NCBI RefSeq assembly: GCF_900142125.1
Contig: NZ_FQZT01000001.1
Coordinates: forward strand, 434,001-498,000
Direction of reading: 5' to 3'
From: Malonomonas rubra DSM 5091
GTDB lineage: Bacteria; Desulfobacterota; Desulfuromonadia; Desulfuromonadales; Geopsychrobacteraceae
Length of the DNA: 64,000 bases
Below are positions 36,280-52,271 of this stretch, in pieces. Both the position numbers and the translations under genes were made by a program. Below the pieces are notes generated by a model. The model did not search any database. It was not told the origin of the DNA and worked only from the letters and a program-made list of their open reading frames with translations. Positions within the stretch are counted from its first letter, which is position 1, and each line of letters opens with the position of its first letter.

Positions 36280-36836
36280 GCTTGCAGAATTTTCTCTACA
36301 GCTGCAGGCAGATCGGCCACAGCCGGGACATTATTCTCATGCGCTTTCTGCACCCATTTCTCACCGTGCCCAGTTCGTACAAGAATCGATGAACAGCCGG
36401 CGGCAGATCCGGCCTGAAAATCGGCATCTTTATCACCAACCATAAAGGATTTTGGCAGATCGATATCCAGTTCACGAGCGGCCTGTAGAAGCATCCCCGG
36501 CTCTCCCTTGCGGCAGTCACACTCAATTTTATACTTGCCAACTCCGGATGTTGGATGGTGGGGGCAGATATAGACACCGGCCAGAACCACACCGTACTCT
36601 TTCAGCAAGACTTTCATGTGCGCATGCAACCGATCAACATCATCCAGCCCGAAATAACCACGCGCAACTCCGGACTGGTTGCTGACCACAACCAGCAAAA
36701 ACCCGGCCTGCTGTAATTTCTGCAACGCTTCCGGCACCCCGGGGATGAACTCGAATTCTGCAGGGTCAATCAGGTAATCTTTTTCGACATTGATCGTCCC
36801 GTCGCGATCGAGAAAGACCGCGCGCTTACTCGCCAT
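36276..36836 (-). CDS. gmhB: D-glycero-beta-D-manno-heptose-1,7-bisphosphate 7-phosphatase
   Basis: 186 residues of the HAD family: nucleophile motif FLDRDGTINVEKDYL, then VVSNQSGVARG, zinc-type motif CPHHPTSGVGKYKIECDCRKG (three Cys and a His) and VGDKDADFQAG. It removes the C7 phosphate in ADP-heptose synthesis. The ATG at 36836 is chosen because the frame upstream lies wholly inside hldE; it overlaps the end of hldE by 11 bases and has a GGTACCGGG-type site before it. Confidence 0.92.
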   Translation of the reverse strand: MASKRAVFLDRDGTINVEKDYLIDPAEFEFIPGVPEALQKLQQAGFLLVVVSNQSGVARGYFGLDDVDRLHAHMKVLLKEYGVVLAGVYICPHHPTSGVGKYKIECDCRKGEPGMLLQAARELDIDLPKSFMVGDKDADFQAGSAAGCSSILVRTGHGEKWVQKAHENNVPAVADLPAAVEKILQA

Positions 36837-38298
36837 CCCGGTACCTGCTGAGAACTTTGTCGATGATATTGGTAGTCGATTTGCCGTCGACAAACTGAAT
36901 CAACTCAACGCGGCCACCGTAGCTCTCGACCAGCTCTTTACCAACAACTTCATCCGGCAGGTAATCGCCCCCCTTGACCAGGATCTGCGGGCGCACCAGC
37001 TGCAGCAACTCCAGCGGGGTATCTTCGTCAAAAATACTCAGATAATCGATGCAGTCGAGCGCTGCCAGAATCTGCGCCCGCTCCGACTCTTCGAGTAGCG
37101 GACGCTTCTCTCCCTTGAGCCGTCGGATCGAGCTATCGGAGTTGAGCCCCAATACTAGCAGGTCTCCTAGCTGACGAGCCTGCTGCAAATATTTCACGTG
37201 CCCTGCGTGCAGCAGATCGAAGCAGCCGTTGGTGAAAACAATTTTCTTGCCGTTGCTGCGCAGTGGATCAAGCAGGGATGCCAGTTCCTTACGCGGCAGA
37301 ATTTTCCCATCGGCCAGGCTGTGCCGACGGGAGTAGCTGTTGATAATTTCCGGCGCTGTAACCGTCGAGGTCCCCAACTTACCAACCACGATTCCGGCTG
37401 CCAGGTTGGCCAACTGGGCCGCATCATTTAACTCTGCACCGACACCGAGCGCTGCACCAATCAGTGCGACAACGGTATCACCAGCACCGGAGACATCAAA
37501 CACTTCACGCGCTTCGGTCGGCAGATGCTCGACACCAGTCTCTGTAAACAGACTCATGCCTTCCTCACTCCGCGTCAAAACCAGGGCATCAAGCTGTTGC
37601 TCGTTCAACAGTTTCTCGCCTGCCTGAAGCAGGCTGGCTTGATCCCGGATGACGACTCCGGTCGCGACCTCGGCTTCTCTTCGATTTGGCGTCAACAGGG
37701 TTGCGCCACGATAACGGCTGAAGTCGGTCCCTTTCGGGTCGACGATGACCGGAATGTTCTGCTTGCGGCAAAGTTCGATGATCTGCTGCAGCAATTCCGG
37801 AGCCAGAACACCTTTCAGGTAGTCGGACAGAAGAACCGCCCCAACCTCGGGCAGTTGCTGCTTGATAAAGGCAAACAGCTGCGACTGCTCCCCAGCAGAG
37901 ATTTCCTCGGTTGATTCCCGATCGATACGCAGCATCTGCTGCTGACTGGCCAGCACCCGGCTCTTACGGCTGGTCGTCCGCTGCTTTGCCTGTAAAACAC
38001 CGGCGACATCGACTCCCTGGCGCTCAAAAAGCTCAAGCAGTTTCCGTCCATCGTCGTCATCACCGACAACCGAAGCGACAGCAACCCGGCAGCCGAGCGC
38101 CTGCAGGTTGTTGACAACGTTCCCGGCTCCACCGAGCCGCAGCTCATCACGCTCGACTTCAACCACCTGCACCGGCGCTTCGGGAGAAATACGGCTGGTT
38201 TTACCCCAGATGTAGTTATCGAGAATCAGGTCACCGACGACAAGCAGCTTACTGGCGGCAATTTCCTTTAAAATCTTTTCGATCAGTTGCGCTGTCAT
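36826..38298 (-). CDS. hldE: Bifunctional heptose-7-phosphate kinase / heptose-1-phosphate adenylyltransferase
   Basis: 490 residues. The N-terminal PfkB-type kinase (~1-330) shows VVGDLILDNYIWG, LGGAGNVVNNL and FDVSGAGDTVVA. The C-terminal nucleotidyltransferase (~355-490) has VFTNGCFDLLHAGHVKYL and LKGEKRPLLEESER. As in E. coli HldE both steps of ADP-heptose formation are on one chain. The start follows directly on the stop of the upstream gene. It forms an operon with gmhB; gmhA is 11 kb away and no hldD (epimerase) is in the window. Confidence 0.95.
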   Translation of the reverse strand: MTAQLIEKILKEIAASKLLVVGDLILDNYIWGKTSRISPEAPVQVVEVERDELRLGGAGNVVNNLQALGCRVAVASVVGDDDDGRKLLELFERQGVDVAGVLQAKQRTTSRKSRVLASQQQMLRIDRESTEEISAGEQSQLFAFIKQQLPEVGAVLLSDYLKGVLAPELLQQIIELCRKQNIPVIVDPKGTDFSRYRGATLLTPNRREAEVATGVVIRDQASLLQAGEKLLNEQQLDALVLTRSEEGMSLFTETGVEHLPTEAREVFDVSGAGDTVVALIGAALGVGAELNDAAQLANLAAGIVVGKLGTSTVTAPEIINSYSRRHSLADGKILPRKELASLLDPLRSNGKKIVFTNGCFDLLHAGHVKYLQQARQLGDLLVLGLNSDSSIRRLKGEKRPLLEESERAQILAALDCIDYLSIFDEDTPLELLQLVRPQILVKGGDYLPDEVVGKELVESYGGRVELIQFVDGKSTTNIIDKVLSRYRDGE

Positions 38299-39261
38299 TT
38301 ATTCGCTTTCTCGCAGTTCATTCAGCACGGCATGGGCAAGCAACGGGATGTTGATCTCATGATGCCCGGTAATGGTGTAGCCCCGTCCCTGCCCCGAAGT
38401 CGGCCGTTTCACCACATTTTGCAGCGGCCGATAATGCTGAATCATATCAAAGTTAGCGGTGGTGAAGTCATCGACCTTATGGCCCAGATTCTGGACAATC
38501 GATAGCGCCTTGAGGAACACTTCCGGCAGCAGCACCGCCGAACCGACGTTCAACCAAACACCACCATCACCAAGATCGGCGACGACGGAACTGAGCAGAC
38601 GAAAATCCTGCATCGACAGCTCGCCGATGGTCGCCCCGTCCGCCTGCGGGTGCTGGTGGATAATGTCGGTGCCGACAGCCACATGCACGGTGATCGGAAT
38701 CTCATTTTCGACACAACAGGCCAGCAGACTGAATTTTTTATAGGGATGATCATTTTCAATGATCGCCCGGCCGATCGACTCACCGAAGCCCCAGCCTTTT
38801 GTCCGCCCGTCCGCCAGCGCGGCGTTCATCCCCTGCCCGGTTTCACGGGAGAAACCGAAATCACCCGACTGCAGCACAGCGCCCACATCCTCTGATGTGG
38901 CACCAGCCAGAGAGACCTCGTAATCATGAATGGTCACCGAGCCGTTCGTTGCTACGGCAGTAATGATGCCGCTTTCGATCAGCTTCTTCAGCACCGGCTG
39001 GAGACCGCACTTGATAACGTGCCCGCCCATCGCCAGCACCACGGGACGATTTTTCTTCTTCGCGTTGACAATCGCCTTGACGACACCGCGCAGCGATTCC
39101 GCACCGAGCAGATCGGGCAGACTGTGCCAAAATTCGGCAAACGATGCATCCGCATTCGGCGGTGCGGCGAAATGTTCGTCCACGTTCACCTTGTTGTCGC
39201 GGGATGTCAGTGAGTATGTTGATATTTTTTCCAGACTGATCGGAAAATAGGTTTTCTTCAT
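38299..39261 (-). CDS. Deoxyhypusine synthase-like Rossmann-fold protein
   Basis: 320 residues. I see no enzyme I can name with certainty. The stretches VVLAMGGHVIKCGL, ITAVATNGSVTIHDYEVSLAG, LNVGSAVLLPEVFLKAL and ITGHHEINIPLLAHAVL recall the NAD-binding fold of deoxyhypusine synthase (for example the TNG-x3-HD pattern). A typical eIF5A partner does not exist in bacteria, so the substrate is probably something else. Its stop abuts hldE, so it is probably co-transcribed with hldE and gmhB and may act in sugar or LPS metabolism. Function is unknown. Confidence 0.45.
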   Translation of the reverse strand: MKKTYFPISLEKISTYSLTSRDNKVNVDEHFAAPPNADASFAEFWHSLPDLLGAESLRGVVKAIVNAKKKNRPVVLAMGGHVIKCGLQPVLKKLIESGIITAVATNGSVTIHDYEVSLAGATSEDVGAVLQSGDFGFSRETGQGMNAALADGRTKGWGFGESIGRAIIENDHPYKKFSLLACCVENEIPITVHVAVGTDIIHQHPQADGATIGELSMQDFRLLSSVVADLGDGGVWLNVGSAVLLPEVFLKALSIVQNLGHKVDDFTTANFDMIQHYRPLQNVVKRPTSGQGRGYTITGHHEINIPLLAHAVLNELRESE

Positions 39262-39376: not shown

Positions 39377-40162
39377 ATGAACGAACAAACATACTACCTT
39401 AATCCGGACTGGCAAACACTGCTCGGCTCGAACCAACTCAGCAGCTTTGAGGATTTCTGGGCCCTGGACATACCGACGGTCGATGAAGGCAACTACGGTC
39501 GCGGACAGGATGGCTGGAGCAAGGTCTGCATCCACAATCTCGATGCGGACAATGGTCAACCCCACCGTATAGTCATCAAGCGACAGAGCAATTACCGCAG
39601 CCGCACTTTGCGCCACCCGCTTCGTGGTATTCCGACATTTGTCAAGGAATACGATTTTATCCGTAAGTATGAAGCCCTCCAGATCCCAGCGTTGAAGGCC
39701 GTCTATTTCGCTACCCGGCAGCAGGACGGTGATCTGCAGGCGATCCTGGTCACCGAATACCTGGAAGGTTATCGCCCTCTCGAAGATATTATTGCGGAAT
39801 GGACAAAAGGTGCAGCGCTTTGCCAGCGTAAACCAGTCATCACATGCGTTGCCAAACTTGTCGCGCAGCTGCACCTGCAAGGGCTCGAACATCGCTGTCT
39901 GTTCCCTAAACACATTTTTGTTCCGCAGAACCCTGAAACGGAACCGGCCTGTCTGATAGATCTCGAAAAAACCCGCTCTCGCCCTTTAAGTTTCGGCCGC
40001 CACGTCAGAGACCTCACCGCTTTGGCGCGAAGATCGAAATCGGTCAGTCGACGGGACATGTTGCGATTCATGCACGACTACCTTGGCACAAACAAGCTGA
40101 ATGCCGATGGGAAAAAGCTCTGGAGAAAAATAAGCCAACGCATCGATAAAAAGCGCCGATAA
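39377..40162 (+). CDS. InaA-like lipopolysaccharide core kinase
   Basis: 261 residues of the protein-kinase-like fold used by LPS core kinases. An ATP-site Lys is in RIVIKRQSNY, with a Glu downstream in the expected helix. The catalytic loop reads EHRCLFPKHIFV, the InaA form of HRDxxxxN, and IDLEKTR replaces DFG. The His-Arg-Cys form is shared with InaA-type proteins. It would phosphorylate heptose or another core sugar on the inner face of the inner membrane. It starts the plus-strand group that continues with the double-kinase gene, 8 bases later. Confidence 0.75.
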   Translation: MNEQTYYLNPDWQTLLGSNQLSSFEDFWALDIPTVDEGNYGRGQDGWSKVCIHNLDADNGQPHRIVIKRQSNYRSRTLRHPLRGIPTFVKEYDFIRKYEALQIPALKAVYFATRQQDGDLQAILVTEYLEGYRPLEDIIAEWTKGAALCQRKPVITCVAKLVAQLHLQGLEHRCLFPKHIFVPQNPETEPACLIDLEKTRSRPLSFGRHVRDLTALARRSKSVSRRDMLRFMHDYLGTNKLNADGKKLWRKISQRIDKKRR

Positions 40163-40170
40163 AGCTGATC

Positions 40171-41565
40171 ATGTCTTACGAAATTAAATCATGGCCCAGG
40201 GTTCTCAAGCTCGCCAGCAATGATACCCTGACCTGCGTAGCTCCGCTAAGGGATCTCCCGGGAAAACGCATGGTCTGCAAGGGAGAATGGCAGGACCAGC
40301 CCGTTGTCGCGAAAATCTTTCTTGATCCAGGACATGGCAAACGGCACTTCAATAGAGAGAAAAAGGGCATCGACGCACTGCGGGAGACAGGCATTTCTAC
40401 GCCACCACTCCTCTTTGCAGGCACAGCTGAAAACCAGAACCCAGTCCTTATTTTTGCGGAACTGCCATCTCCACAAACAGCACTGCAGCTTTGGCAGCAA
40501 GCAGCTGACGACACCCAGAAGACAGAACTGCTGCAGACGTTGCTTTCCCTGTTGGCGCAGCACCATCAGTCTGGTTTACAGCAAAAAGATCTACACCTGG
40601 GTAATTTTTTATTCAGTGATGATACCTGGTACACGATTGATGGCGATGCGGTTGACAGCTCACAGCTGGGAACCCCGCTTGACCTAACTGCCAGCCTGAG
40701 CAACCTTGCTCTTTTTTTTGCGCAACTGCCCCCGGATTCTGACGATCTCATCGCCAATGTGCTTGATTCCTACACTTACCCCCGTGGGCTCAATTCCCAT
40801 CAGGTTATCACGCAACTGACAGAGCAGCTTTCCGTCGTTCGTACCAGACGCAGGCAGACTTACGTAAAAAAGAGTTACCGCACCTGCAGCGAGTTCATTC
40901 GACAGGATAATCCCGGACAGATTGCTATTTATCGCCGCGACTGCGACACAGAAAGAATCACTGAGCTGCTGAAAGATCCGGATTCCCTTATCGAACGAGG
41001 CGAAATCCTCAAGGACGGTAACAGCGCAACGGTTGTCCGGATTCCCCATCCTGATGGGGACTGGGTCATCAAGCGTTATAACTACAAAAGCTTCTGGCAC
41101 GGTTTGAAACGATGCCTTCGCCCGACACGGGCCTGGCGTTCATGGGGAAATTCACACCGCTTAAAAATTTCCGATATCAAAACACCAAAAGCAGTTGCCG
41201 TAATTGAGAAAAGGCTGGGTCCTTTGCGCCTAGGCGCTTATTTTGTGTGTGAGAACTTGAGCGCCCCGGACGCACAAAGCTATTTCGCCCGGGACCAACT
41301 CGATGAAAAAGACTCGGCAGCAGCAAACCTGGTCACTCTTTTCAAGCAACTGCATAAACTCGGCATTCACCACGGCGACTGCAAAGCAACCAACTTCCTG
41401 ATTCACCAGCAGCAACCCTGGGTTATCGATCTTGACGCGATGAGAGAATACCGTTCACGCGACACGTTTTTGCGCCGCTACCAAAGTGATCGTCACCGTT
41501 TTCTAGCCAACTGGCAGTGTGACCTTCGGCTCCAGAGTTGGTTCGTGCAGAACCTGCCCAGTTAA
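40171..41565 (+). CDS. Protein with two tandem WaaP/InaA-type kinase domains
   Basis: 464 residues that split into two kinase-fold halves. Half 1 (~20-225): ATP Lys48 (VVAKIF), catalytic loop KDLHLGNFL with Asp140 and Asn145, metal Asp157 (IDGD). Half 2 (~275-450): Lys301 (WVIKRY), loop HGDCKATNFL with Asp403 and Asn408, metal Asp420 (VIDLD). Both halves keep the core catalytic set, so both may be active. Members of this family add phosphate to LPS core heptose. It follows the InaA-like kinase by 8 bases. Pseudomonas core clusters have similar long kinase genes next to a carbamoyltransferase, which supports an inner-core role. Confidence 0.75.
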   Translation: MSYEIKSWPRVLKLASNDTLTCVAPLRDLPGKRMVCKGEWQDQPVVAKIFLDPGHGKRHFNREKKGIDALRETGISTPPLLFAGTAENQNPVLIFAELPSPQTALQLWQQAADDTQKTELLQTLLSLLAQHHQSGLQQKDLHLGNFLFSDDTWYTIDGDAVDSSQLGTPLDLTASLSNLALFFAQLPPDSDDLIANVLDSYTYPRGLNSHQVITQLTEQLSVVRTRRRQTYVKKSYRTCSEFIRQDNPGQIAIYRRDCDTERITELLKDPDSLIERGEILKDGNSATVVRIPHPDGDWVIKRYNYKSFWHGLKRCLRPTRAWRSWGNSHRLKISDIKTPKAVAVIEKRLGPLRLGAYFVCENLSAPDAQSYFARDQLDEKDSAAANLVTLFKQLHKLGIHHGDCKATNFLIHQQQPWVIDLDAMREYRSRDTFLRRYQSDRHRFLANWQCDLRLQSWFVQNLPS

Positions 41566-41686
41566 TACCGTGATTCCCAATGGCTGCCCTTGACAATAAC
41601 AGTCAGAACAGGGACAATCCATCCCCCTGAAAAAAATACGTTTTTCACCCCCAAAATACCGATTTCGCGCACAGAGGACCAGAACC

Positions 41687-42340
41687 ATGACGCAGGATGC
41701 AAATAACGGCTCCGAATACAGACAGCGTATCAAGCATACAACTGAAAAAGCTGATAAGTACCAGCACCGCAAGGCCAATAAGCACAAGAAAGAGATGGCC
41801 CTTATCGAGAGAGCGCTTGGCGAGATAACAGGTGTTAAAACCTTCCTCGACGCCCCCTGCGGCGTTGGCCGCGCCAGTCTACTGTTGGAACAAAAAGGTT
41901 ACACAGTGACCGGGGTCGATCTCGGCGAAGGAGCTCTTAAGGCTGCACAGGAAACGGTTGAAGCTGTCGGCAGCAAAGTGAAAATTGAAAAAGCCGACCT
42001 CGAGCAGATTCCATATGAAGATAAAAGCTTCGATGCATGCCTCTGCTTCCGCTTCATCCATCATCTGTCGACCGCTGAGCTTCGTGATCGCATCATCGGT
42101 CAGCTCTGCCGGGTATCAGATCGCTATGTGCTGATTTCCTACCTCAGCCCGATGTCTGTAACCAGCTTCAGGCGTTCGATGAAAGAAAAACTGCAGAAAA
42201 AGATTTCGTATCAGAACCGAATCGCTTTGAGTCATCTCCAGAAACACTTTTCAGATCATGGTTTTTCCCTGAAGCAGGACTATGCCCAATTGCCGCTGCT
42301 TCACAGCCTTCATCTGGCTGTTTTCGAACGCAACAGTTAG
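41687..42340 (+). CDS. Class I SAM-dependent methyltransferase
   Basis: 217 residues with a Rossmann SAM site: FLDAPCGVGRASLLLEQ (motif I) and TGVDLGEGALKAA (motif II); the later acidic motif DLEQIPYEDKSFDACLC marks the Methyltransf_11 family. AGAGGA precedes the ATG. The substrate is unknown; the place between core kinases and a carbamoyltransferase suggests modification of LPS or a linked small molecule. It is followed by a strong hairpin that separates it from the next gene. Confidence 0.8.
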   Translation: MTQDANNGSEYRQRIKHTTEKADKYQHRKANKHKKEMALIERALGEITGVKTFLDAPCGVGRASLLLEQKGYTVTGVDLGEGALKAAQETVEAVGSKVKIEKADLEQIPYEDKSFDACLCFRFIHHLSTAELRDRIIGQLCRVSDRYVLISYLSPMSVTSFRRSMKEKLQKKISYQNRIALSHLQKHFSDHGFSLKQDYAQLPLLHSLHLAVFERNS

Positions 42341-42356
42341 GCGGTCGGTAAAAGGG

Positions 42357-42390
42357 GTCTCTGGCTCACTCTGATGCGCGAGCCAGAGAC
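42357..42390 (+). terminator. Strong hairpin after the methyltransferase gene
   Basis: A perfect 11-bp stem, GTCTCTGGCTC (42357-42367) and GAGCCAGAGAC (42380-42390), loop of 12. No T run follows, so it may act as a weak terminator or mRNA stabiliser. Confidence 0.5.
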
Positions 42391-42477
42391 AAATTGCTTC
42401 AAAGCACTGCTGTTCTTTGTTAGTCTGAGTTGTTAAAAGCACTGCAACATCAATATTTCTACGGAGATTTTTCATAT

Positions 42478-44205
42478 ATGGCAAAAGTTATCCTCGGCCT
42501 GTCCGGCGCCCTGACCCATGATCCATCCGCCGCACTCTATGTAGACGACAAGCTGGTTGCTGCTGCAGAAGAAGAGCGCTTCATCCGTGACAAACACGCG
42601 AAAAACCGCATGCCGCTTGAGGCGACCAAGTTCTGCCTTGAATACGCAGGTCTCAAACCTCGCGACATCGATATCGTTGCTTTCCCTTATGCAAAAATCG
42701 GCCTGGACCGACCTGATCGCTGGCACTACGCCAAACGCTACTGGTATGCTCCAGATCGTGCTTTAACCGCTCTCTTCAACGGCAACCGTCGCTACCACCG
42801 TAATGTTGCCAATGTCCGCGGCATGCTGGAAAAACTCGGTGTCAATTGGGACCTCATCTCTTTCGTGCCTGTTGAGCACCATATGACCCACGCCAGCAGC
42901 GCATATCACCTGAGCGGTTTCAAGGGGAAAACTGCCATCCTCGGTATCGATGGCAAAGGGGAGTACGCAACCACTTTCTTCGGTTACGGCGAAAACGGCA
43001 AGATCCACAAGATCAAGGAATTCTACGACCCAGACTCTCTCGGCGGACTGTACGGTGCCATGACTGAATACCTCGGCTTCGAGATGCTGGACGGCGAATT
43101 CAAAGTTATGGGGATGGCACCATACGGCGATCCGGAGAAATATGATTTCTCGCGTCTGGCCAAGTTCGAAAACGGCGAGCTGAAGGTCAATACAGAGCTG
43201 GTCAACACTGTTGGCTGGCGGCGCTACAAGGAAAACGGTAAGGGGTATTACTTCAGCAAAAAGCTTGTCGACTGGCTCGGGCCAAAACGCCAGGGCGACA
43301 ATGCTGACGAGCCATATATTGATTACGCGGCCTGCATTCAGCGTCTGTTCGAAAAGCTTTCCCTAGAGATGATTGACTACTACCTGAAAGACATCCTCGA
43401 AGAGACCGGTCAGCTCTGTTTTGCCGGCGGCAGCGCCCTGAACGTAAAGCTGAACCAGTACATCATCGATCTGCCTTACGTGAAGGAATTGTTCGTTCAG
43501 CCTGCGGCTTCAGATGCCGGCACCGCACTTGGCGCAGCGTCCTACGCGGCTCACCTGGCCGGAATTGAGGTTGAGCCACTGCAGCACGTTTACCTCGGCC
43601 CTAAATATAGCAACGAAGAATGCATCGCAGCCTGCGAAGCCCACTCCGAGAAGCCAACGTGGGAGAAGATCGACAAGGTCCCGGAAACCGTGGCAAAAAT
43701 CCTGGCCGAAGGAAATCCTGTCGCCTGGTTCCACGGTCGCATGGAGTTCGGCCCGCGCGCCCTTGGCTGTCGTAGTATACTCGGCTGCCCAAGCGTTCCC
43801 GGCGTGGCTGATCGCATTAATGAACAGATAAAATATCGCGAGCGTTGGCGTCCATTTTGCCCCAGCGTTCTCGATACCGTTGCCGAAGACCTGCTACAGA
43901 CCAAACACCCGGCGCCGTACATGACATTCACCTTCAAGGCCAACCCGGCCTGGAACGACCGCATCCCCGAGGTTATTCATGAAGACGGCACCTCACGTGC
44001 GCAGGTGGTCAACAAAGAGACCAACCCGCGCTACTATGCTCTGATCGAAGAACTGGAAAAGCTGACCGGCAACGGCGTGGTACTTAACACCTCACTGAAT
44101 CGCCGCGGTGAGCCAATGGTCTGTTCACCAACCGATGCGCTGAATATGTTTTACGGGTCCGATCTGCCGTATCTGGTGCTGGAAGATATTCTGGTGCGGA
44201 AGTAG
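42478..44205 (+). CDS. NodU/CmcH-family carbamoyltransferase
   Basis: 575 residues. The N-terminal ASKHA/Kae1-like domain starts ILGLSGALTHDPSAALYVDD and holds the metal-binding His motif VEHHMTHASSAYHLSGF. The C-terminal domain has GRMEFGPRALGCRSIL and CPSVLDTVAEDL. The family transfers carbamoyl from carbamoyl phosphate to a hydroxyl via a carbamoyl-adenylate. In Pseudomonas aeruginosa a member carbamoylates heptose II of the LPS core, and the surrounding kinase genes here fit that role. The ATG at 42478 has CGGAGA at 9 bases; the upstream TTG start is not supported. Confidence 0.9.
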   Translation: MAKVILGLSGALTHDPSAALYVDDKLVAAAEEERFIRDKHAKNRMPLEATKFCLEYAGLKPRDIDIVAFPYAKIGLDRPDRWHYAKRYWYAPDRALTALFNGNRRYHRNVANVRGMLEKLGVNWDLISFVPVEHHMTHASSAYHLSGFKGKTAILGIDGKGEYATTFFGYGENGKIHKIKEFYDPDSLGGLYGAMTEYLGFEMLDGEFKVMGMAPYGDPEKYDFSRLAKFENGELKVNTELVNTVGWRRYKENGKGYYFSKKLVDWLGPKRQGDNADEPYIDYAACIQRLFEKLSLEMIDYYLKDILEETGQLCFAGGSALNVKLNQYIIDLPYVKELFVQPAASDAGTALGAASYAAHLAGIEVEPLQHVYLGPKYSNEECIAACEAHSEKPTWEKIDKVPETVAKILAEGNPVAWFHGRMEFGPRALGCRSILGCPSVPGVADRINEQIKYRERWRPFCPSVLDTVAEDLLQTKHPAPYMTFTFKANPAWNDRIPEVIHEDGTSRAQVVNKETNPRYYALIEELEKLTGNGVVLNTSLNRRGEPMVCSPTDALNMFYGSDLPYLVLEDILVRK

Positions 44206-44278
44206 ACTCCACTGTCAATACAGATGGTAGAATACGGTGTCACTAAAGGCGACACCCAGCTTAAGGATATGAATCGAC

Positions 44279-45295
44279 ATGCAACAAGCTATTGCGTTTA
44301 TCAATCCCAAAGTATCAACAAGCAATGTAGGTGATTATTTTATTGAGAATAGCGTAAAGCGCTTATTAGCTTACGACAAAAAGAGAAGCATTGATATTGA
44401 TCCACGTCGACCCTTGAACTCAGGTGACATTGAGAAAATAAATTCTTGCGATGCAGCCGTAATAGTTGGAACAAACCTCTGGTATAGACATATCAGCAAA
44501 CCTGGACGCTGGATGATATCTATTGACGAGTTAAAGAAAATCAATATCCCATTCATCCCGCTTGGAGTGGGGACCACTCAACACCGCGGAGAAGAAGAAA
44601 GTTTTAAATTTGATACTGAAACAATTGGGCTACTAAATGAAATACACAGTAAATGCAATGAATCCAGTGCCCGCGACCCGCGAACATATGAAACCTTAAA
44701 AAAGGCCGGAATCAGGAATGTCAAGATGACTGGCTGTCCTACACTTTATCGTAGTTTGAACCCAACCTGGACTTTAAACAAAAAAACAACCGATGAAGTT
44801 GTTATCACTGCTCGCAAAGGACATGATAGAAACATCGGTATTATAATTGACGAACTGATTGGGCACGGTAAGCGCCCTATTCTTGCAGCTCAAAAGAAAA
44901 ATGATCTTTACTGTGCAAGAAGACGTTTTCCTTTTTTCAAACAAAAGATCAAAACGTTATACGAATTCAACATCACACCTTATCAGGATCTCGTTGACAA
45001 CGCTTATGGGGCAATAGGCTGGCGCCTGCATGGGAATATGTTTCACCTTGCGCACGGCAATCCAACGATGTTTTTTGCAAATTGTTCACGCTGTCTATCG
45101 TTCAGTGAGGCCTTTGACCTGCCATGTATTTATGCTGAGGACAAAGAGGCGATCAAGAAAAATGAACTTGTTTCTGCGGTAGAGAAGTTTCTGGATGCAG
45201 GCTATTTCTCTGGTTTCGAGAAAAAATATGCACAGCACTATCAAGATATGAAATGTTTTCTGGAGGACAACAACTTAAAGCATAATTTAGGATAA
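44279..45295 (+). CDS. Polysaccharide pyruvyl transferase-family protein
   Basis: 338 residues. The start has the family pattern STSNVGDYFIENSVKRLL, the middle has IPFIPLGVGTTQHRGEEES and SARDPRTYETLKKAG, and the C-terminal part has the conserved YGAIGWRLHGNMFHLAHGNPT and SECSRCLSF-like region. Members add pyruvate ketals to surface sugars or act in related transfers. The base composition is clearly richer in A and T than the genes on the left, which suggests separate acquisition. AGGA lies 11 bases before the ATG. Confidence 0.75.
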   Translation: MQQAIAFINPKVSTSNVGDYFIENSVKRLLAYDKKRSIDIDPRRPLNSGDIEKINSCDAAVIVGTNLWYRHISKPGRWMISIDELKKINIPFIPLGVGTTQHRGEEESFKFDTETIGLLNEIHSKCNESSARDPRTYETLKKAGIRNVKMTGCPTLYRSLNPTWTLNKKTTDEVVITARKGHDRNIGIIIDELIGHGKRPILAAQKKNDLYCARRRFPFFKQKIKTLYEFNITPYQDLVDNAYGAIGWRLHGNMFHLAHGNPTMFFANCSRCLSFSEAFDLPCIYAEDKEAIKKNELVSAVEKFLDAGYFSGFEKKYAQHYQDMKCFLEDNNLKHNLG

Positions 45296-45311
45296 AAGCT
45301 ATCTTTTAGCG

Positions 45312-45339
45312 CTGCGGAGGCGATCATAAGCCTCCGCAG
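45312..45339. terminator. Hairpin between convergent genes
   Basis: A perfect 10-bp stem CTGCGGAGGC (45312-45321) and GCCTCCGCAG (45330-45339) with an 8-base loop lies between the pyruvyl-transferase-like gene and the glycosyltransferase. No T run follows on either strand. Confidence 0.5.
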
Positions 45340-45357
45340 AACTATATCCAGACTGTA

Positions 45358-46872
45358 TCACTGATTAATAGTTAGAAAAAAAACAACTTTTTCATCCCCT
45401 TGAAACTTCTTAAAAACATCAAATCCTTGAAAGTCAATTCCTTCAATCTTTTTTCTAGAAAAATATAAAATCGCAAAGTCAAACTTATTAATTGCTCTCC
45501 TAAGCGAAGTAAGATCTTCAGCTGTTTTATATTCCCTAACATATACTACTTCGCTTATTCGATTTGCATACAACGGCAACCGACGGTCATTATACAAAAT
45601 CTTCGCTTTGCGCTCTTGATCATACTGGCGCAGCCAATGGGCAGCTTTAATCAATGATTTGTCTTCTGGCTCCACTGCAACGGCAACCGACTTCGCCAGA
45701 GGGGACAACAAAATCAACACAACTGCAAATGTAGAAACTATTTTTTTCCGCCTTCGTTGCCACCACAAATTGATACCATAGCCAACCCAGGGCAAAGTCA
45801 AAACAATCGGTATCCAGAAATAGCGTTCCTGAATAAAGTTTCGCTTAAATAGAAAAAGGAGATTCAGCAAGGCAAATCCGACCCAGATCAGCATTATCAG
45901 CCAACGCTCTCGGGTCATTTTCTTCTCGTCTGAATTTCTCCAACGCAGCGCCCAAAGCGCCAAAAGAGATGTTGGGAAAATAGCCTTTAGAAGAGTTTCT
46001 AGCAAACCAAGACAATAAACCAGAGGCGCGTAGTGGCGCGTCACCTCAAGCAGGTTATTAGAATATCTGGCACCCGGAAGAGTCATTTGCAGCTCTTTCA
46101 ACGCCTGCAATAAATCCTGATAGCTTTTAAAAAACTTAAAGCTGAGTAACCCATCAAACCATATGGAAAGCTCATTGATTCGCAGGTTCTTGGTGACTCC
46201 GGCAGCACTCGCCACAAGCACAGACGCCACTACTACTGCAGCAGAGATCGCTCCCCCGACAATTTTTTTTCTTCTGCCAACGGTATTGTTTCTAAGAGAC
46301 AACAGAAGAGAAATCGGAGCAATAAAAAACAACAAACAGCCCTCGATGCGTGTCAGCGTTGCCAAAGTGGCAAAAGCTAAAAAGCCGGAGAAAAAGCGAA
46401 ACCTGTTTTCCTGCGCAAAAACAACCAACAGCCAAAGCCCGCAAAGAGTAAAAAATAAAAACAGGGGATCACGTTTAATGTCCATGGCTGATTCGTTAAA
46501 AACCGGCAGCACTGCAAATAAGCACGCGGCCCACAAAGCAGCAGAACGGCAGAAAAGGCGTTTCGTAATTCCATAAAGAGGGAAAAGACAGAGCAACAAT
46601 GAGCTGATAGACACAAACCTACCGGCTAATATCCAGTCAGGGACAACAATATGCGTTCCGGCCAAAAGTAGAGGATAGAGCGGCATCCGATAATGTCTCA
46701 GCCCTTCCTGAAACAATCCTTGACTGTGCCAATCGGCAGCAGCAACATATGTACCCGCATCAGAATTGACCACTTCGCCCTGAATGAGAAAAAGCAACTT
46801 CAGCAACAGCGACAGGAATGAAACAAAAAGCAAACAGCGATTTTCCTGTAATAAGTTGAATACCCGACTCAC
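45358..46872 (-). CDS. GT39/ArnT-like membrane glycosyltransferase
   Basis: 504 residues with about ten transmembrane helices in the first ~410 residues and a soluble C-terminus. After helix 1, VNSDAGTYVAAADWHSQGLF carries the acidic site of the dolichyl/undecaprenyl-phosphate sugar transferase (PMT_2) fold. It would add a sugar from undecaprenyl phosphate on the periplasmic side, for example to lipid A or core. The start is GTG at 46872, overlapping the waaP stop as GTGA, with a GGAAG site ~11 bases away. It is the last gene of the minus-strand LPS run. The sugar is unknown. Confidence 0.75.
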   Translation of the reverse strand: MSRVFNLLQENRCLLFVSFLSLLLKLLFLIQGEVVNSDAGTYVAAADWHSQGLFQEGLRHYRMPLYPLLLAGTHIVVPDWILAGRFVSISSLLLCLFPLYGITKRLFCRSAALWAACLFAVLPVFNESAMDIKRDPLFLFFTLCGLWLLVVFAQENRFRFFSGFLAFATLATLTRIEGCLLFFIAPISLLLSLRNNTVGRRKKIVGGAISAAVVVASVLVASAAGVTKNLRINELSIWFDGLLSFKFFKSYQDLLQALKELQMTLPGARYSNNLLEVTRHYAPLVYCLGLLETLLKAIFPTSLLALWALRWRNSDEKKMTRERWLIMLIWVGFALLNLLFLFKRNFIQERYFWIPIVLTLPWVGYGINLWWQRRRKKIVSTFAVVLILLSPLAKSVAVAVEPEDKSLIKAAHWLRQYDQERKAKILYNDRRLPLYANRISEVVYVREYKTAEDLTSLRRAINKFDFAILYFSRKKIEGIDFQGFDVFKKFQGDEKVVFFLTINQ

Positions 46873-47681
46873 GATTTATACTTCCGGTAAAAACGTTTCA
46901 ACAGCTTCCCCCCTCGATATTCGACTTTATCCCACAACCGCCGATGCTGCTTTATGGCTTGAGGAAGTGGTTGTTGAGTATAACCACGAATAAAACGGTA
47001 AAAATCTCTTTGTGTGAGACCGATCTCCATACTTGAGAAATAGAGTGCAGACAAATCTTTAAGCCTCCAATGAAAAGGCAAACTTTTTCTAAACTGCACA
47101 CGGTGAAGGTCTATTAGGTACAGATGCAACTGATCCGGGTCACAACCTTTACTGCGGAAAGAAACATCCAGCAAAAAATGGCACAAGTAGTAATCCCTAT
47201 GATTCACACCGTTATCGTGCAAAAGCCGTGATATGGTCGCCAACCGTTCAATCAGAGTTCGCTTCAACTGCGCAGCAGGTGGATTCACTAACCAATCGCG
47301 GGTAAAATCTTCAAGACTCTCAGTATTGATCAGTTCCTCGGTGATGATAAACGACTGACGTCGGGCAGGGTTCCTCCCACGATCTCCGTAACCAATCAAG
47401 GTCATGGTTTCAACCCCGAGTTCTTCTAATTTATGAATCGCCTGACATTCGTTGGCGGCAGACAAAACAGGTGGTTTCTGCAGCTTCAACAGACTTTTAA
47501 ATATACGTGGCCAACCGATTCCAGGATAGAGCTTCGCAAAATACCCTTTGCCGTCCATCTCAAACCGCAAAGTCTTGCGGCCATCCATATTTCGATACTC
47601 TTCTCCCTGCAGTCCGAGGACCTGTTCAAAAAGATCTTTGTTCTTCCATCGTTCTTTCCACTCCTCAGGAAGAAGGATCAT
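46869..47681 (-). CDS. waaP: LPS core heptose(I) kinase WaaP
   Basis: 270 residues, the size of E. coli WaaP. The catalytic loop NHRDYYLCHFLLD and the later LYLIDLHRVQ match the HRD-x-Y-x-CHFLL and DLHR motifs that are special to WaaP; the ATP Lys is in GYFAKLYPG. It phosphorylates heptose I of the inner core, which stabilises the outer membrane. The ATG overlaps the waaG stop (ATGA), giving the waaG-waaP order also seen in enterobacteria and pseudomonads. Confidence 0.9.
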   Translation of the reverse strand: MILLPEEWKERWKNKDLFEQVLGLQGEEYRNMDGRKTLRFEMDGKGYFAKLYPGIGWPRIFKSLLKLQKPPVLSAANECQAIHKLEELGVETMTLIGYGDRGRNPARRQSFIITEELINTESLEDFTRDWLVNPPAAQLKRTLIERLATISRLLHDNGVNHRDYYLCHFLLDVSFRSKGCDPDQLHLYLIDLHRVQFRKSLPFHWRLKDLSALYFSSMEIGLTQRDFYRFIRGYTQQPLPQAIKQHRRLWDKVEYRGGKLLKRFYRKYKS

Positions 47682-48790
47682 GACAGTACCCGCTCAATAA
47701 CATCCACAGCCCGCTGCGGCATACTGAAAATATCGTTAAACTTGATGTATCTGCGAGCATTTTCTTGCCATAGTTCGCGTTTGGGTTGCTCAAGCATCAG
47801 CCTTAACTTTGCATTCATTTCATCCTGAGAAAAGGGCTCTGTCAAAACTTCCCCACATTGTGCCGCCTTCACATGAAAACTATATCCACACACGTCCGAC
47901 ACAAGAAGAGGCAACGTAGCAGCAACTGCCTCTAAAAGTACGGTTCCTGTATTTTCACGGTACGCTGGATGCAGCAACAAATCTGCAGCAAACAGCAGGT
48001 CCGCGACATCGTCACGCCCCCCCATAAAAACAAACTGCTTCTCAATTCCTAAAGAATTTGCCTGCCGCTGGAATGGCTTGACATTATCCTTCCCAACCAC
48101 ATAGAGCATTACCTGCTCACGCAAACGTTCAGGCAATGACGCCACAGCTCTCAAACTACGATCTAACCCTTTTGTCTTGAATCCAGAGCCAACCATCAGC
48201 AACATTTTTTTATCTTGGAGCCCTAACTGACTCCGCTTCTGTTCTCTCAGCAGCGGATAATCTTCTCCAGCTTGCCTGTCCTTTTGGATTCCAGGAGGCA
48301 GTTGATGCATCCTGGAAGCATCTGTTCCATATATTTGGGAAAAAATGTCTTCCTCACGTGGAGAAATCAAGAGGATCTCAGTATTCGAATCGGGCCCGAA
48401 TACCTTCCGTTCACTGGAAAGAAAGCTGCGAGTGCGCCCTGCCCAGCGATAAAAAAAACTTCGCTCGGCAGCTTTTGCTGCAAAACAAGGATCAGCAGCA
48501 TAATAAATATCGAGGCCAGGCATCTTATTGAAGCCAACAAGCCCATCGTAACCACCCTCGTCTGCAATTAGCTGAAACTGATCAGCAAATGTTTCATAGC
48601 GTTTATAATTACGGCTGGCTCGTTGTGGCAAAACATGAAGGTTAATCCCTGAAGGGACATTGCCTTCGGCCTGCAGAGCAAAAATATCAACACTATGACC
48701 GCGCGATATAGCTTCCTCAGCAATTTTTACACAATCACGCTGCAACCCCCCGTAAGGGAAATATTTGAAAAGGGAAAAAGCGAGTTTCAT
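47678..48790 (-). CDS. waaG: LPS core glucosyltransferase WaaG (GT4)
   Basis: 370 residues of the GT-B fold. The N-terminus FSLFKYFPYGGLQRDCVKIA and the middle GFNKMPGLDIYYAADPCFA closely follow WaaG; the C-terminal half has LLLHPAYRENTGTVLLEA with the GT4 EX7E-type Glu pair and CGYSFHVKAAQCGEVL. It adds the first outer-core hexose (glucose in E. coli) to heptose II. It is upstream of waaP and overlaps it by 4 bases. The hexose type cannot be told from sequence. Confidence 0.92.
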   Translation of the reverse strand: MKLAFSLFKYFPYGGLQRDCVKIAEEAISRGHSVDIFALQAEGNVPSGINLHVLPQRASRNYKRYETFADQFQLIADEGGYDGLVGFNKMPGLDIYYAADPCFAAKAAERSFFYRWAGRTRSFLSSERKVFGPDSNTEILLISPREEDIFSQIYGTDASRMHQLPPGIQKDRQAGEDYPLLREQKRSQLGLQDKKMLLMVGSGFKTKGLDRSLRAVASLPERLREQVMLYVVGKDNVKPFQRQANSLGIEKQFVFMGGRDDVADLLFAADLLLHPAYRENTGTVLLEAVAATLPLLVSDVCGYSFHVKAAQCGEVLTEPFSQDEMNAKLRLMLEQPKRELWQENARRYIKFNDIFSMPQRAVDVIERVLS

Positions 48791-48848
48791 ACCATTTTAT
48801 TTTCTAAAACTCTCGAAACTTCGAAGATTATCAGAAAAAGCAAACCAC

Positions 48849-49589
48849 TCAGTCAGGGAAAAAGTTAAGAAGCCGGCAAATCATTTCCTTGTCTTTTACA
48901 GACAATCGCTTAACGTTTCTGTACTGGAGAAAAAAATACAAGCGCCTGCTGCGAGAAAGAACTTTTTTTCCGATGGTATCAAGGCATGCCAGATCCTTAA
49001 TCGCCCCACGTTGCTTTAGCCACCCAAACCATTCACGCCCTAAAGGGCAATCAAAAAAATAGACCTTAGGTGACTCGTGATCAACAGCAGAGACAAGAAC
49101 ATTTCGCCACTTTAAATCTCTATGAACAAAGCCATGCTGATGAAGACGACGTGTATAATCAGCAGTTTGCCGTATAACAGCCTCCAACCAACGCCCCTTG
49201 CTGAACAACTGTGGTCGAGCTATAGACAGGGCTCTCAGGTCCCAGGCCTGAGGCACTTCTGCAGTGACAAGAAAACCAACTTTAAGCAAACCCAAGTGAG
49301 TCTGTTGCCCGTAAGCAACAATACGAGGAATAGGGATGCCGAGCTGAGAAAAATAAAACAGATTTTCCCACTCACCTTGAAGTCGACCTCGACCCAAGTA
49401 GTGACGTACACCCTTGCCATTTCGAGTGTACTCTTTAATATAGTAGGTAGTATTCTGAATCGTCAGTTTTTTCACCAAACTGATCGGATCTTTAGATATA
49501 CACTCCCCGTCAAGTTCAGCGGTTCTCATCAATGAGCCAAAGTCGTTATATTCTGTTTCTTCACCGAGAAATGTCCAACTAGTTTTCAT
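48849..49589 (-). CDS. LPS core kinase-family protein
   Basis: 246 residues from the ATG at 49589, which has GGTGGTGGGT just before it; an upstream start (49637) would overlap gmhA by 26 bases. ATP Lys is in TTYYIKEYTRN, and the catalytic loop HGFVHRDLKWRNVLV and YFFDCPLG (Asp for DFG) are complete. This is a WaaP/KdkA-type kinase different from WaaP itself, lacking CHFLL. Such second kinases phosphorylate other heptose or Kdo positions. It sits between gmhA and waaG in the LPS run. Confidence 0.75.
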   Translation of the reverse strand: MKTSWTFLGEETEYNDFGSLMRTAELDGECISKDPISLVKKLTIQNTTYYIKEYTRNGKGVRHYLGRGRLQGEWENLFYFSQLGIPIPRIVAYGQQTHLGLLKVGFLVTAEVPQAWDLRALSIARPQLFSKGRWLEAVIRQTADYTRRLHQHGFVHRDLKWRNVLVSAVDHESPKVYFFDCPLGREWFGWLKQRGAIKDLACLDTIGKKVLSRSRRLYFFLQYRNVKRLSVKDKEMICRLLNFFPD

Positions 49590-49611: not shown

Positions 49612-50184
49612 TTAAGCCCTAAATAGTTCCTGCTCAACCAAATCGCACAACAAATGGATGACAGTCAGGTGGGTTTCCTGGATAAAAGGCGTTTCCTGGA
49701 CCTTTACTGTTAAGGGCAAATCGGCGAGTTCAGCGATTTCTCCGCCGTCACGGCCAAGCAGTGCAACCGTAAGGCACTTTCGCTGACGAGCCTGCTCCAG
49801 AGCAATCCGTACGTTTTCCGAATTTCCGCTGGTAGAAATGCCAATCACCACATCCCCACCTTCGGCCAGTGCCTCAACCTGACGGGAAAAAATTTGATCA
49901 AAGCCAAAATCATTGCCAACTGCCGTCAGGATAGAAGTATCAGTCGTTAGCGCGATTGCCGGCAAAGCCGCCCTGTTTTTCAGAAATCGACCAACAAGTT
50001 CTGCGGCAAAGTGCTGCGAATCAGCGGCACTTCCGCCATTGCCCATGATCAAAATTTTTTTGCCTTGCCGCAAAGCGTCACAAAGCATCTCGACACAGCG
50101 TTGAATATCGCTGCTGAGATTTTCCTTTGCCCAGTGGAGTGTTTCCAGGTGTCGATCAAAATGGTGTTGGATCTTATCCTGCAT
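49612..50184 (-). CDS. gmhA: Phosphoheptose isomerase
   Basis: 190 residues with the SIS-domain pattern: LIMGNGGSAADSQHFAAELVGRF, LTTDTSILTAVGNDFGFDQIFSRQVEALA, and GISTSGNSENVRIALEQA. GmhA makes D-glycero-D-manno-heptose 7-phosphate from sedoheptulose 7-phosphate, the first step of heptose synthesis; hldE and gmhB elsewhere in the window supply the next steps. ATG 50184 has GGAAGAG directly upstream and is preferred over 50196. The metal His/Glu residues near the C-terminus (QETHLTVIHLLCDLVE) are present. Confidence 0.93.
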   Translation of the reverse strand: MQDKIQHHFDRHLETLHWAKENLSSDIQRCVEMLCDALRQGKKILIMGNGGSAADSQHFAAELVGRFLKNRAALPAIALTTDTSILTAVGNDFGFDQIFSRQVEALAEGGDVVIGISTSGNSENVRIALEQARQRKCLTVALLGRDGGEIAELADLPLTVKVQETPFIQETHLTVIHLLCDLVEQELFRA

Positions 50185-50199
50185 AACTCTTCCCATACC

Positions 50200-51237
50200 T
50201 TATTTCTTTAATTGGCCGACAATTGCAGTATAAACGTCATCGACAGAAATAGAACAGCTACAGGCGGCATCATCATCGCAGTGTTTCCTTAAACAGGGAG
50301 AGCACTCCAGCGGTGCCTGTAAACGCTGGTGAATTTCCCCCACCGGTCCGTTACGCGTGGCATCGGTCACACGGTAGAGAGAAACCGTTGGGGTACCGAC
50401 TGCTGCTGCAATGTGAACAGGACCGGTGTCGCATCCCACGACCAACTCACTCTGCTCAAGTAGCGCTACCAGATCCTGCAACGAACCACGAGGCCAAACA
50501 ATAGAAGTCTCATCTGAAGCCTCAGCAATCGCCTCTACTGCTTCTTTTTCCTCTTCATTTCCCCAAGTTAAAACAGGCCGAATCCCCTGTTCTTGGTATA
50601 AGCGTTTTACAAGTTCTTTCCACGACTCAAGCGCCCAAAGCTTTGTCTGCCAAGTCGTACCATACACACAGACAACCAAAGGTCCACTGATATTAAACTG
50701 TTTTAGTTGCTCAGCGATTCTTTGCCGTGAGGCATCTTCGACGTGCAGAGGCCCAGCGGACGCAACTATATTTTCTGATGGCAGAGCAGCGCGCACCACA
50801 GCCAGAGCCCGTTGGGCGATATGGTGATCTTTTTCCCCCAGAGGAACATGATGCCGCGTTGCCAGCAGGTTCGGCCATTCTCGCACATTCGCTCTGTCAA
50901 ATCCGTATTTATCCTGACCTCTGGCCAGCAAGGTACAAACTCCGCTCTTACTGTTCCCCTGCAAATCGAAAACCAAGTCGTAACGTCTGCTGCGCAGTTC
51001 GCGGATAAAGTTGCTGACTTCCTTCAAAATCGAGGATATCGGCTGCTTACGCCAACGCTTGGTGCGAAGCCTGATAACGCGTTGAATCAGCGGGTGGCCT
51101 TCCAGAATCGGACTAAAGGCTTCTTCGACCAGCCAATCGATCTCGGCATCCGGATGAACGGCCCTGATATGTGCCAGCACTGGCAGGGCATGCACCACAT
51201 CACCCAGCGCGCTGACTTTAACGATCAACACTTTCAT
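50200..51237 (-). CDS. waaC: LPS heptosyltransferase I
   Basis: 345 residues, GT9 family. The start KVLIVKVSALGDVVHALPVL holds the acidic residue in the first loop expected of WaaC, and FDLQGNSKSGV, VCVYGTTWQTKLWALESW, and VGCDTGPVHIAAAVGTP follow. It transfers the first L-glycero-D-manno-heptose to Kdo. The ATG overlaps the waaF stop (ATGA). A Cys-rich tail (CSPCLRKHCDDDAACSC) is typical of delta-proteobacterial members. Confidence 0.92.
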   Translation of the reverse strand: MKVLIVKVSALGDVVHALPVLAHIRAVHPDAEIDWLVEEAFSPILEGHPLIQRVIRLRTKRWRKQPISSILKEVSNFIRELRSRRYDLVFDLQGNSKSGVCTLLARGQDKYGFDRANVREWPNLLATRHHVPLGEKDHHIAQRALAVVRAALPSENIVASAGPLHVEDASRQRIAEQLKQFNISGPLVVCVYGTTWQTKLWALESWKELVKRLYQEQGIRPVLTWGNEEEKEAVEAIAEASDETSIVWPRGSLQDLVALLEQSELVVGCDTGPVHIAAAVGTPTVSLYRVTDATRNGPVGEIHQRLQAPLECSPCLRKHCDDDAACSCSISVDDVYTAIVGQLKK

Positions 51238-52271
51238 GGTTGATCGTCCAGCAGCTGGTATGCAGCCTGTAACACATCATCAGCTTGAATCGCCGTCATG
51301 CAACGATGGTCGATCGGGCACTGCCGTAACAAGCAGGGAGCACAATCTGTCTCCTTTCGTACAATGACGACTTTTTCAGATGCCGGACAGGTCGTGGTGT
51401 GATCTGTTGAACCGAACACTGCCACAATCGGAATATCAAAAGCAGATGCCACATGCATTGGTCCGGAGTCGTTGGTCACCAGCAAACGGCTTGAAGCCAA
51501 TAGCGCCATCATTTGTCGGACTGAGGTTTTGCCAACCATATTCAATGGGTTGCAAGCCATCGTAGCAGCGATGTCATTGCCGATTTCCACTTCACCCGGC
51601 CCGCCGGTCAGTACAATGCGAGCGTCATAAGATTTTGCCAGTTCGTCTCCAACTGCAGCAAAACGCTCCGGTAGCCAGCGTTTGGCTGAACCGTAAGCGG
51701 CCCCCGGATTGATTGCGATAACGTTCTCTTCTGCAAGCACCTCTTTAGCCCAATCGAGCTCTTCACTCGTGCAGGCAAGCTTCAGTTTCCTGTCACCACC
51801 CTCGATTCCCAAGCGGGAAAGAAGCTGCAGATAGTAATCGGTGTGATGCAAGCGTTTGTCAGCATCACTTACGCTGATCGGGTGATTAAGCAGCAATCGG
51901 CGGCCATCTGTCGTGTAACCGGCTCTTCGCGGAATCAACGCCAACACTGAAAGTAACGCTGCCTCAATGGCATTCTGCAGCAACACAGCAGCATCGAAAC
52001 GTTGCTTCCGCAGCTCTGATGCCATTTGCCAGAATCCGGAAGTTCCTTGGTGCCGCCGTTTTTTGTCAAAAACCATCACCCGATCGACGCTGGGGTGAGC
52101 GGCAAAAAGCTCGGCGACCAAAGGATTGGCAACCATTACGATCTCAGCATCCGGATAATGACTGCGCAACGTTGCCAGCGCCGGTGTCGTCATGACTGCA
52201 TCGCCGATCCAGTTGACGCCACGAACCATGATCCGTTTCAACGGAAGCTGTCCTAGCCGTTTAGCTGCCAC
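51234..52271 (-). CDS. waaF: LPS heptosyltransferase II
   Basis: 345 residues, GT9 family. IMVRGVNWIGDAVMTTPAL near the N-terminus, INPGAAYGSAKRWLPERFA and VTNDSGPMHVASAFDIP are as expected; GVNWIGD with Asp identifies WaaF. It adds heptose II. The start used is GTG at 52271 with a rather distant GGAG; the ATG at 52229 within the frame is closer to the E. coli start and is an alternative. A Cys-rich C-terminal segment (CAPCLLRQCPIDHRC) may hold metal. Overlaps waaC. Confidence 0.92.
   Translation of the reverse strand: MAAKRLGQLPLKRIMVRGVNWIGDAVMTTPALATLRSHYPDAEIVMVANPLVAELFAAHPSVDRVMVFDKKRRHQGTSGFWQMASELRKQRFDAAVLLQNAIEAALLSVLALIPRRAGYTTDGRRLLLNHPISVSDADKRLHHTDYYLQLLSRLGIEGGDRKLKLACTSEELDWAKEVLAEENVIAINPGAAYGSAKRWLPERFAAVGDELAKSYDARIVLTGGPGEVEIGNDIAATMACNPLNMVGKTSVRQMMALLASSRLLVTNDSGPMHVASAFDIPIVAVFGSTDHTTTCPASEKVVIVRKETDCAPCLLRQCPIDHRCMTAIQADDVLQAAYQLLDDQP

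Follow-up and report, generated by a model that had tools for sequence, protein, structure and literature searches.

A putative Pseudomonas-type lipopolysaccharide core-decoration locus in Malonomonas rubra and the missing catalytic aspartate of its WapQ-like protein

Does a group of kinase-like and transferase genes in Malonomonas rubra DSM 5091 serve to decorate the lipopolysaccharide (LPS) inner core in the manner of Pseudomonas, and can each of its kinase folds be read as one phosphorylation? The genes lie in a window of 64,000 nt (NZ_FQZT01000001.1), which is the whole stretch of DNA that was analyzed and whose numbering is used for all coordinates. The published Pseudomonas core oligosaccharide cluster, PA4996-PA5012, carries waaF, waaC, wapG, waaP, wapP, wapQ, PA5006, wapO ... 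msbA and hldE, and the functions of PA5006, WapQ and WapO are largely inferred even in Pseudomonas (PMC8005017). An earlier note on the window had likened its genes to that set and predicted from them an unusual inner core for a delta-proteobacterium. Our search of the literature turned up no core structure for desulfuromonads.

Layout of the locus and its Pseudomonas counterparts

All open reading frames named in the earlier note are present (Table 1), with a small correction to the start of the carbamoyltransferase gene, which is the ATG at 42478. The carbamoyl-, methyl- and pyruvyl-transferase-family genes described around waaG-waaP were all matched by Pfam. A plus-strand run encodes, in order, the WapQ-like protein, a double kinase, a methyltransferase, the carbamoyltransferase and a PF04230 protein, with intergenic gaps of 8 to ~140 bases. 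It is bordered on the left by gmhB-hldE-GSU2086 and, beyond the minus-strand half of the module, on the right by gmhA-waaC-waaF-lpxK-waaA-msbA-lpxB, also on the minus strand. Counts of promoters and terminators across the locus were at chance level, and transcription units were therefore inferred from spacing alone. GC content is 0.50-0.55 in the first four plus-strand genes, 0.40 in the PF04230 gene and 0.43-0.47 on the GT-C-waaP-waaG-WapP side; this contrast suggests that the two halves of the module may have separate histories.

Table 1. Features of the putative core-decoration locus and its flanks (window numbering)
Feature	Coordinates	Strand	Evidence
gmhB, hldE (ADP-heptose synthesis) and GSU2086-family gene	36276..39261	-	Flank of module
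WapQ ortholog (InaA/WapQ/WarB family)	39377..40162	+	Pfam Kdo 3.6e-37; best match of Pseudomonas WapQ, 36-39%
PA5006 ortholog, two tandem kinase domains	40171..41565	+	Pfam Kdo/WaaP kinase, two stretches
Class-I SAM methyltransferase, WarA-like	41687..42340	+	Pfam 6e-17
WapO ortholog, O-carbamoyltransferase (TobZ/NodU family)	42478..44205	+	Pfam Carbam_trans N and C domains
Polysaccharide pyruvyl transferase family protein	44279..45295	+	PF04230, E 7.7e-18
GT-C (PMT_2) glycosyltransferase adjoining waaP	45358..46872	-	Domain search
WaaP/RfaP heptose-I kinase	46869..47681	-	Pfam 2.1e-48; NCBIfam equivalog NF011703
WaaG/WapG-type GT4 glycosyltransferase	47678..48790	-	Domain search; 46-50% to Pseudomonas waaG-position protein
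WapP ortholog, kinase	48849..49589	-	Pfam 6e-15; 41-45% to Pseudomonas WapP
gmhA-waaC-waaF, heptose isomerase and two heptosyltransferases making the acceptor	49612..52271	-	Position; 57-75% to desulfuromonad counterparts

Dozens of named Pseudomonas genomes have counterparts of the window proteins arranged as waaF-waaC-waaG-waaP-WapP-WapQ-PA5006-WapO ... msbA-hldE, which agrees with the published cluster (PMC8005017). The P. citronellolis WaaP, WapP, WapQ and PA5006 proteins, plus PA4998 and WarB, were scored against the window kinase genes. Each of the first four selected a single window gene (247, 179, 147 and 229 bits, respectively), with any other score of these four at 47 bits or below, while PA4998 had no clear match among the window kinase genes. 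The pairs are 46869 with WaaP, 48849 with WapP, 39377 with WapQ and 40171 with the two-domain PA5006 (36%, E 1.5e-72, to the PA5006-position protein of P. citronellolis), to which 42478 and WapO can be added. The likeness to Pseudomonas is stronger than had been claimed: every kinase gene, as well as the carbamoyltransferase gene, has its own ortholog. These one-to-one relationships make the window set one of Pseudomonas type.

The window shares orthologs of WaaP, WapP, WapQ, PA5006, WapO and WapG with the Pseudomonas cluster, as well as linkage to heptose genes. It differs in lying on two strands, in having WapP next to gmhA, in its lack of a recognizable PA4998 and in its additional WarA-like methyltransferase, PF04230 protein and GT-C enzyme. 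The usual one-strand order waaF-waaC-waaG-waaP-wapP-wapQ-PA5006-wapO, which is not a defining feature, is absent, and the heptosyltransferases are of desulfuromonad type, with 29-35% identity to those of Pseudomonas. A GT-C gene with 41-54% identity occurs at the equivalent place in other genera, and the protein is probably a core glycosyltransferase.

The carbamoyltransferase aligns to TobZ across most of both domains and is 72-74% identical to Pseudomonas WapO. When a carbamoyltransferase alignment was run against 84,980 species, each represented by one genome, it recovered 80 loci at 71-84% identity, most of them in Pseudomonas, Stutzerimonas, Methylophaga, Rhodocyclaceae and other proteobacteria. 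The genes waaG-waaP-wapQ-PA5006-wapO also occur on a contig (L066:7737-11713) deposited as the archaeon Candidatus Nitrosopumilus salaria BD31, in what looks like an archaeal assembly contaminated with bacterial DNA.

Three further observations concern the surroundings of such loci. The GSU2086-family gene (38299-39261 in the window) adjoins hldE in many desulfuromonad core LPS loci (L022, L024, L027-L029, L151), where it is 69-82% identical and better conserved than hldE; the family has no assigned function and is weakly deoxyhypusine-synthase/ArgZ-like. At the place occupied by WapP in the window, relatives have a weakly kinase-like open reading frame (19-30 bits) behind waaG (L147:16713-17429, L151:16451-17107 and L034:16464-17264), which may be a PA4998 counterpart. 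The double-kinase gene of one genome (G053; L023:8228-9631) has one in-frame TAG, possibly marking a pseudogene or a sequencing error.

Kinase folds, active sites and the WarA-like methyltransferase

PF06293 (Kdo/WaaP kinase) matched five places in the whole genome, four of them within the module and the fifth marginal (E 3.4e-4). That four genes give five kinase-fold domains, as the earlier note had it, holds: 39377, 46869 and 48849 encode one each and 40171 encodes two. The predicted model of the 464-aa product of 40171 (pLDDT 94.7) has two complete kinase folds, one at residues 7-224 (Z 18.5 to PRPK, 6wqx) and the other at residues 250-464 (Z 16.7 to WaaP, 6dfl). The 46869 protein scores 359.8 bits with NF011703, against a cut-off of 170, and matches 6dfl at E 2.8e-76.

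Residues K51, H161, D163, Y165, H168 and D188 are needed in P. aeruginosa WaaP, as mutation showed, and WaaP with D163A is unable to sustain growth (PMC6147952). Active sites were scored against these positions. The equivalents of all six are kept in the window WaaP and are intact in nearly all of 69 WaaP sequences. The WapP active site is intact in 47/47 sequences, the window copy retaining HRDxxxxN and the Mg-binding Asp, and both domains of the double kinase are intact across 69 sequences except for two gapped rows.

The WapQ-like protein departs from this pattern. Its catalytic loop reads HRCLFPKH, with Cys at the D163 position, and a profile alignment to the WaaP structure 6dfl also places the Cys on D163. 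Among 63 aligned WapQ/WarB sequences (39377 and 62 relatives, including eight WarB), this position is Cys in 57, Ser in five, Ala in one and Asp in none (0/63). The ATP-binding Lys, the Glu, the His of the HRD motif and the second-metal His are kept in 63/63, and the Mg-binding Asp in 62/63. The AlphaFold model (pLDDT 95.5) superposes on WaaP 6dfl over 230 residues with Z 21.7 and rmsd 3.8. The count of five kinase domains therefore stands for folds and not for active kinases: four of the five have a normal active site, and a tally of five folds does not amount to five phosphorylations. The WapQ-like protein is probably a pseudokinase or an atypical kinase, and absence of the HRD Asp is no proof of inactivity. 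WapQ is termed a heptose kinase in the literature (PMC8005017), and our search found no paper on a missing Asp in WapQ/InaA, which is not proof that none exists.

In Pseudomonas, warA-warB is a methyltransferase-InaA pair beside colRS (PMC2689224, PMC8805031), and WarA has an effect on the length of the O antigen in P. aeruginosa (PMC7168646). The window methyltransferase and Pseudomonas WarA are reciprocal best matches, at a weak 24-28% identity within a large superfamily, and the window protein was the sole match at E 0.01 when WarA was searched against the window genome. Thirteen named genomes have a match to this methyltransferase, and in seven of them the top-scoring gene lies directly beside a WarB-type gene with the Cys/Ser substitution. 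Closer relatives occur in a congener (66%) and in G080 (60%), in the latter beside a WapQ gene off the main locus. WarA is reportedly similar to WbdD according to the original study, a point given no weight here. At such low identity, the WarA assignment ranks as a lead with reciprocal and positional support. As the reciprocal best match of the partner of WarB, the protein is probably not an ordinary sugar O-methylase.

Assignment of 39377 as a WarB ortholog was rejected, with 88 bits for WarB against 147 for WapQ; in the WapQ tree, WarB forms its own clade (100/100) and the 39377 protein falls within a desulfuromonad clade (100/99). The window resembles the WarA-WarB arrangement in that a methyltransferase matching WarA and a kinase-like gene with Cys for the catalytic Asp occur in the same gene run, but differs in that the kinase-like gene is a WapQ ortholog and the pair is embedded in a core locus. 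No separate WarB was found in the window genome, which makes the WapQ-like protein the natural candidate partner of the methyltransferase.

The last gene of the plus-strand run encodes a protein that covers positions 1-279 of the 280 of the PF04230 profile. A match was found in only three of 244 genomes of the class, including that of the window, and the sole close one is in G212 (63%). There waaG, waaP, a double kinase and the PF04230 gene follow in a row (L162:5715-10235), which ties the gene to the core locus. A search of PDB sequences returned nothing meaningful and thus no solved relative by sequence. Pyruvyl transfer by this protein is a guess at the family level.

Distribution and history in desulfuromonads

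Among delta-proteobacteria, the set is not confined to the window genome. Of the 88 genomes of the order with a completeness of 90% or more, 14 have a WapO ortholog, and the set is also found in Rhodocyclaceae, Methylophaga and other Gammaproteobacteria. WapO is present in all seven genomes of genus g36; within the window's own family it was found only in the window genome and a less complete congener genome. In a further congener (G003), waaG-waaP is accompanied by a different kinase gene pair and there is no carbamoyltransferase. The locus is a variant of a known module that is patchy within the order.

The earlier note had also stressed a split over two strands and extra tailoring genes. 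The methyltransferase and PF04230 genes are indeed extra relative to the Pseudomonas cluster, but the split recurs in other desulfuromonad genera: hldE on the minus strand, WapQ-PA5006-WapO on the plus strand and waaP-waaG-gmhA-waaC-waaF on the minus strand are common to the window, G076, G078 and G084, so the split is a feature of the lineage and not an oddity of the window genome. Unlike the window, the core loci of G072, G076, G078 and G084 had no visible WarA-like or PF04230 gene. In G072, G076 and G078, WapP is 25-150 kb distant, whereas in G084 it heads the operon, with a shortened open frame, in a WapP-WapQ-PA5006-WapO run. G047 has the Pseudomonas order, except for an inserted gmhA and the lack of WapP.

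In the WapO tree, the window sequence belongs to a desulfuromonad-rich clade of 11 (SH-aLRT 99). G047 and G071 belong to the same order, but their sequences fall within a group of Pseudomonas and Rhodocyclaceae (100); the WapQ tree gives the same placements. These split placements suggest that the set entered the order on two or more occasions, another family having gained it separately, or that it was replaced on one. High WapO identity alone was rejected as proof of recent transfer because the family evolves slowly (89% between the window and G076, compared with 60% for hldE). The case for transfer rests on the patchy distribution and on the nesting of G047 and G071 with Pseudomonas-type sequences in both trees.

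A proposed route of core decoration and its alternatives

We consider it likely that the locus is a Pseudomonas-type module for decoration of the LPS inner core. What was observed directly is gene content, orthology, folds, active-site residues and distribution, and we read the locus in this way because of the one-to-one kinase orthologs, the shared gene order, the WapO identity and the intact WaaP-essential residues in WaaP, WapP and both PA5006 domains, and because heptose synthesis and transfer genes adjoin and the methyltransferase has both a reciprocal match to WarA and its pairing. In the proposed route, WaaC and WaaF would build the Hep-Hep inner core, WaaP would phosphorylate heptose I, and WapP and the double kinase would add further phosphates. 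WapO would carbamoylate heptose II with carbamoyl phosphate as the donor, and extension of the core would fall to the WaaG-type and GT-C enzymes. The PF04230 protein may modify an outer residue with pyruvate or with some other group. The WapQ-like protein would most likely be a pseudokinase partner, with the WarA-like methyltransferase as its most likely partner by comparison with WarA/WarB. We infer the substrates, the positions of the groups and the protein partnership.

A different target, with the plus-strand operon (39377-45295) decorating an O antigen, capsule or exopolysaccharide and lying beside core genes by chance, appears very improbable. Its separate strand, the activity of carbamoyltransferase and PF04230 families on other polymers and the effect of WarA on O-antigen length would fit such a role, but WapP-WapQ-PA5006-WapO forms one run with waaF-waaC-waaG-waaP in Pseudomonas, as does most of it in G047 and G071, and the genes identified in the run include no O-antigen polymerase or transporter.

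Core decoration could also proceed with all five kinase domains as active sugar kinases, adding one phosphate each, if another residue supplied the base in WapQ. Conservation of its ATP- and metal-site residues exceeds what drift alone would leave, and its published name agrees; we nevertheless regard this as unlikely, given Cys, Ser or Ala at the D163 position throughout the group, the failure of D163A WaaP and the fact that wapQ can be deleted in P. aeruginosa with relatively minor fitness effects (PMC8982409). It is possible, if doubtful, that the methyltransferase and the PF04230 protein act independently of the kinases, as ordinary tailoring enzymes for O-methylation and pyruvylation of core sugars. 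Both family assignments and the position of the PF04230 gene in G212 are in keeping with this; what speaks against it is that the methyltransferase goes together with a WapQ/WarB-type protein both in G080 and in Pseudomonas (WarA-WarB). A more far-reaching possibility, somewhat less likely than not, is a conserved bacterial pseudokinase family of LPS assembly, in which WapQ/WarB (InaA-type) proteins would have kept the ATP site, lost the catalytic Asp and become allosteric or scaffolding partners of other core enzymes and of a WarA-type methyltransferase; in this lineage, the WapQ-like protein and the methyltransferase are both encoded in the core-decoration locus.

The main interest of the locus is the catalytic Asp missing across WapQ/WarB together with a WarA-like gene in the same run. 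For some desulfuromonads, a Pseudomonas-like core that is highly charged and carbamoylated is predicted, and a protein routinely annotated as an LPS heptose kinase (WapQ, WarB) is without a residue that is essential in WaaP.
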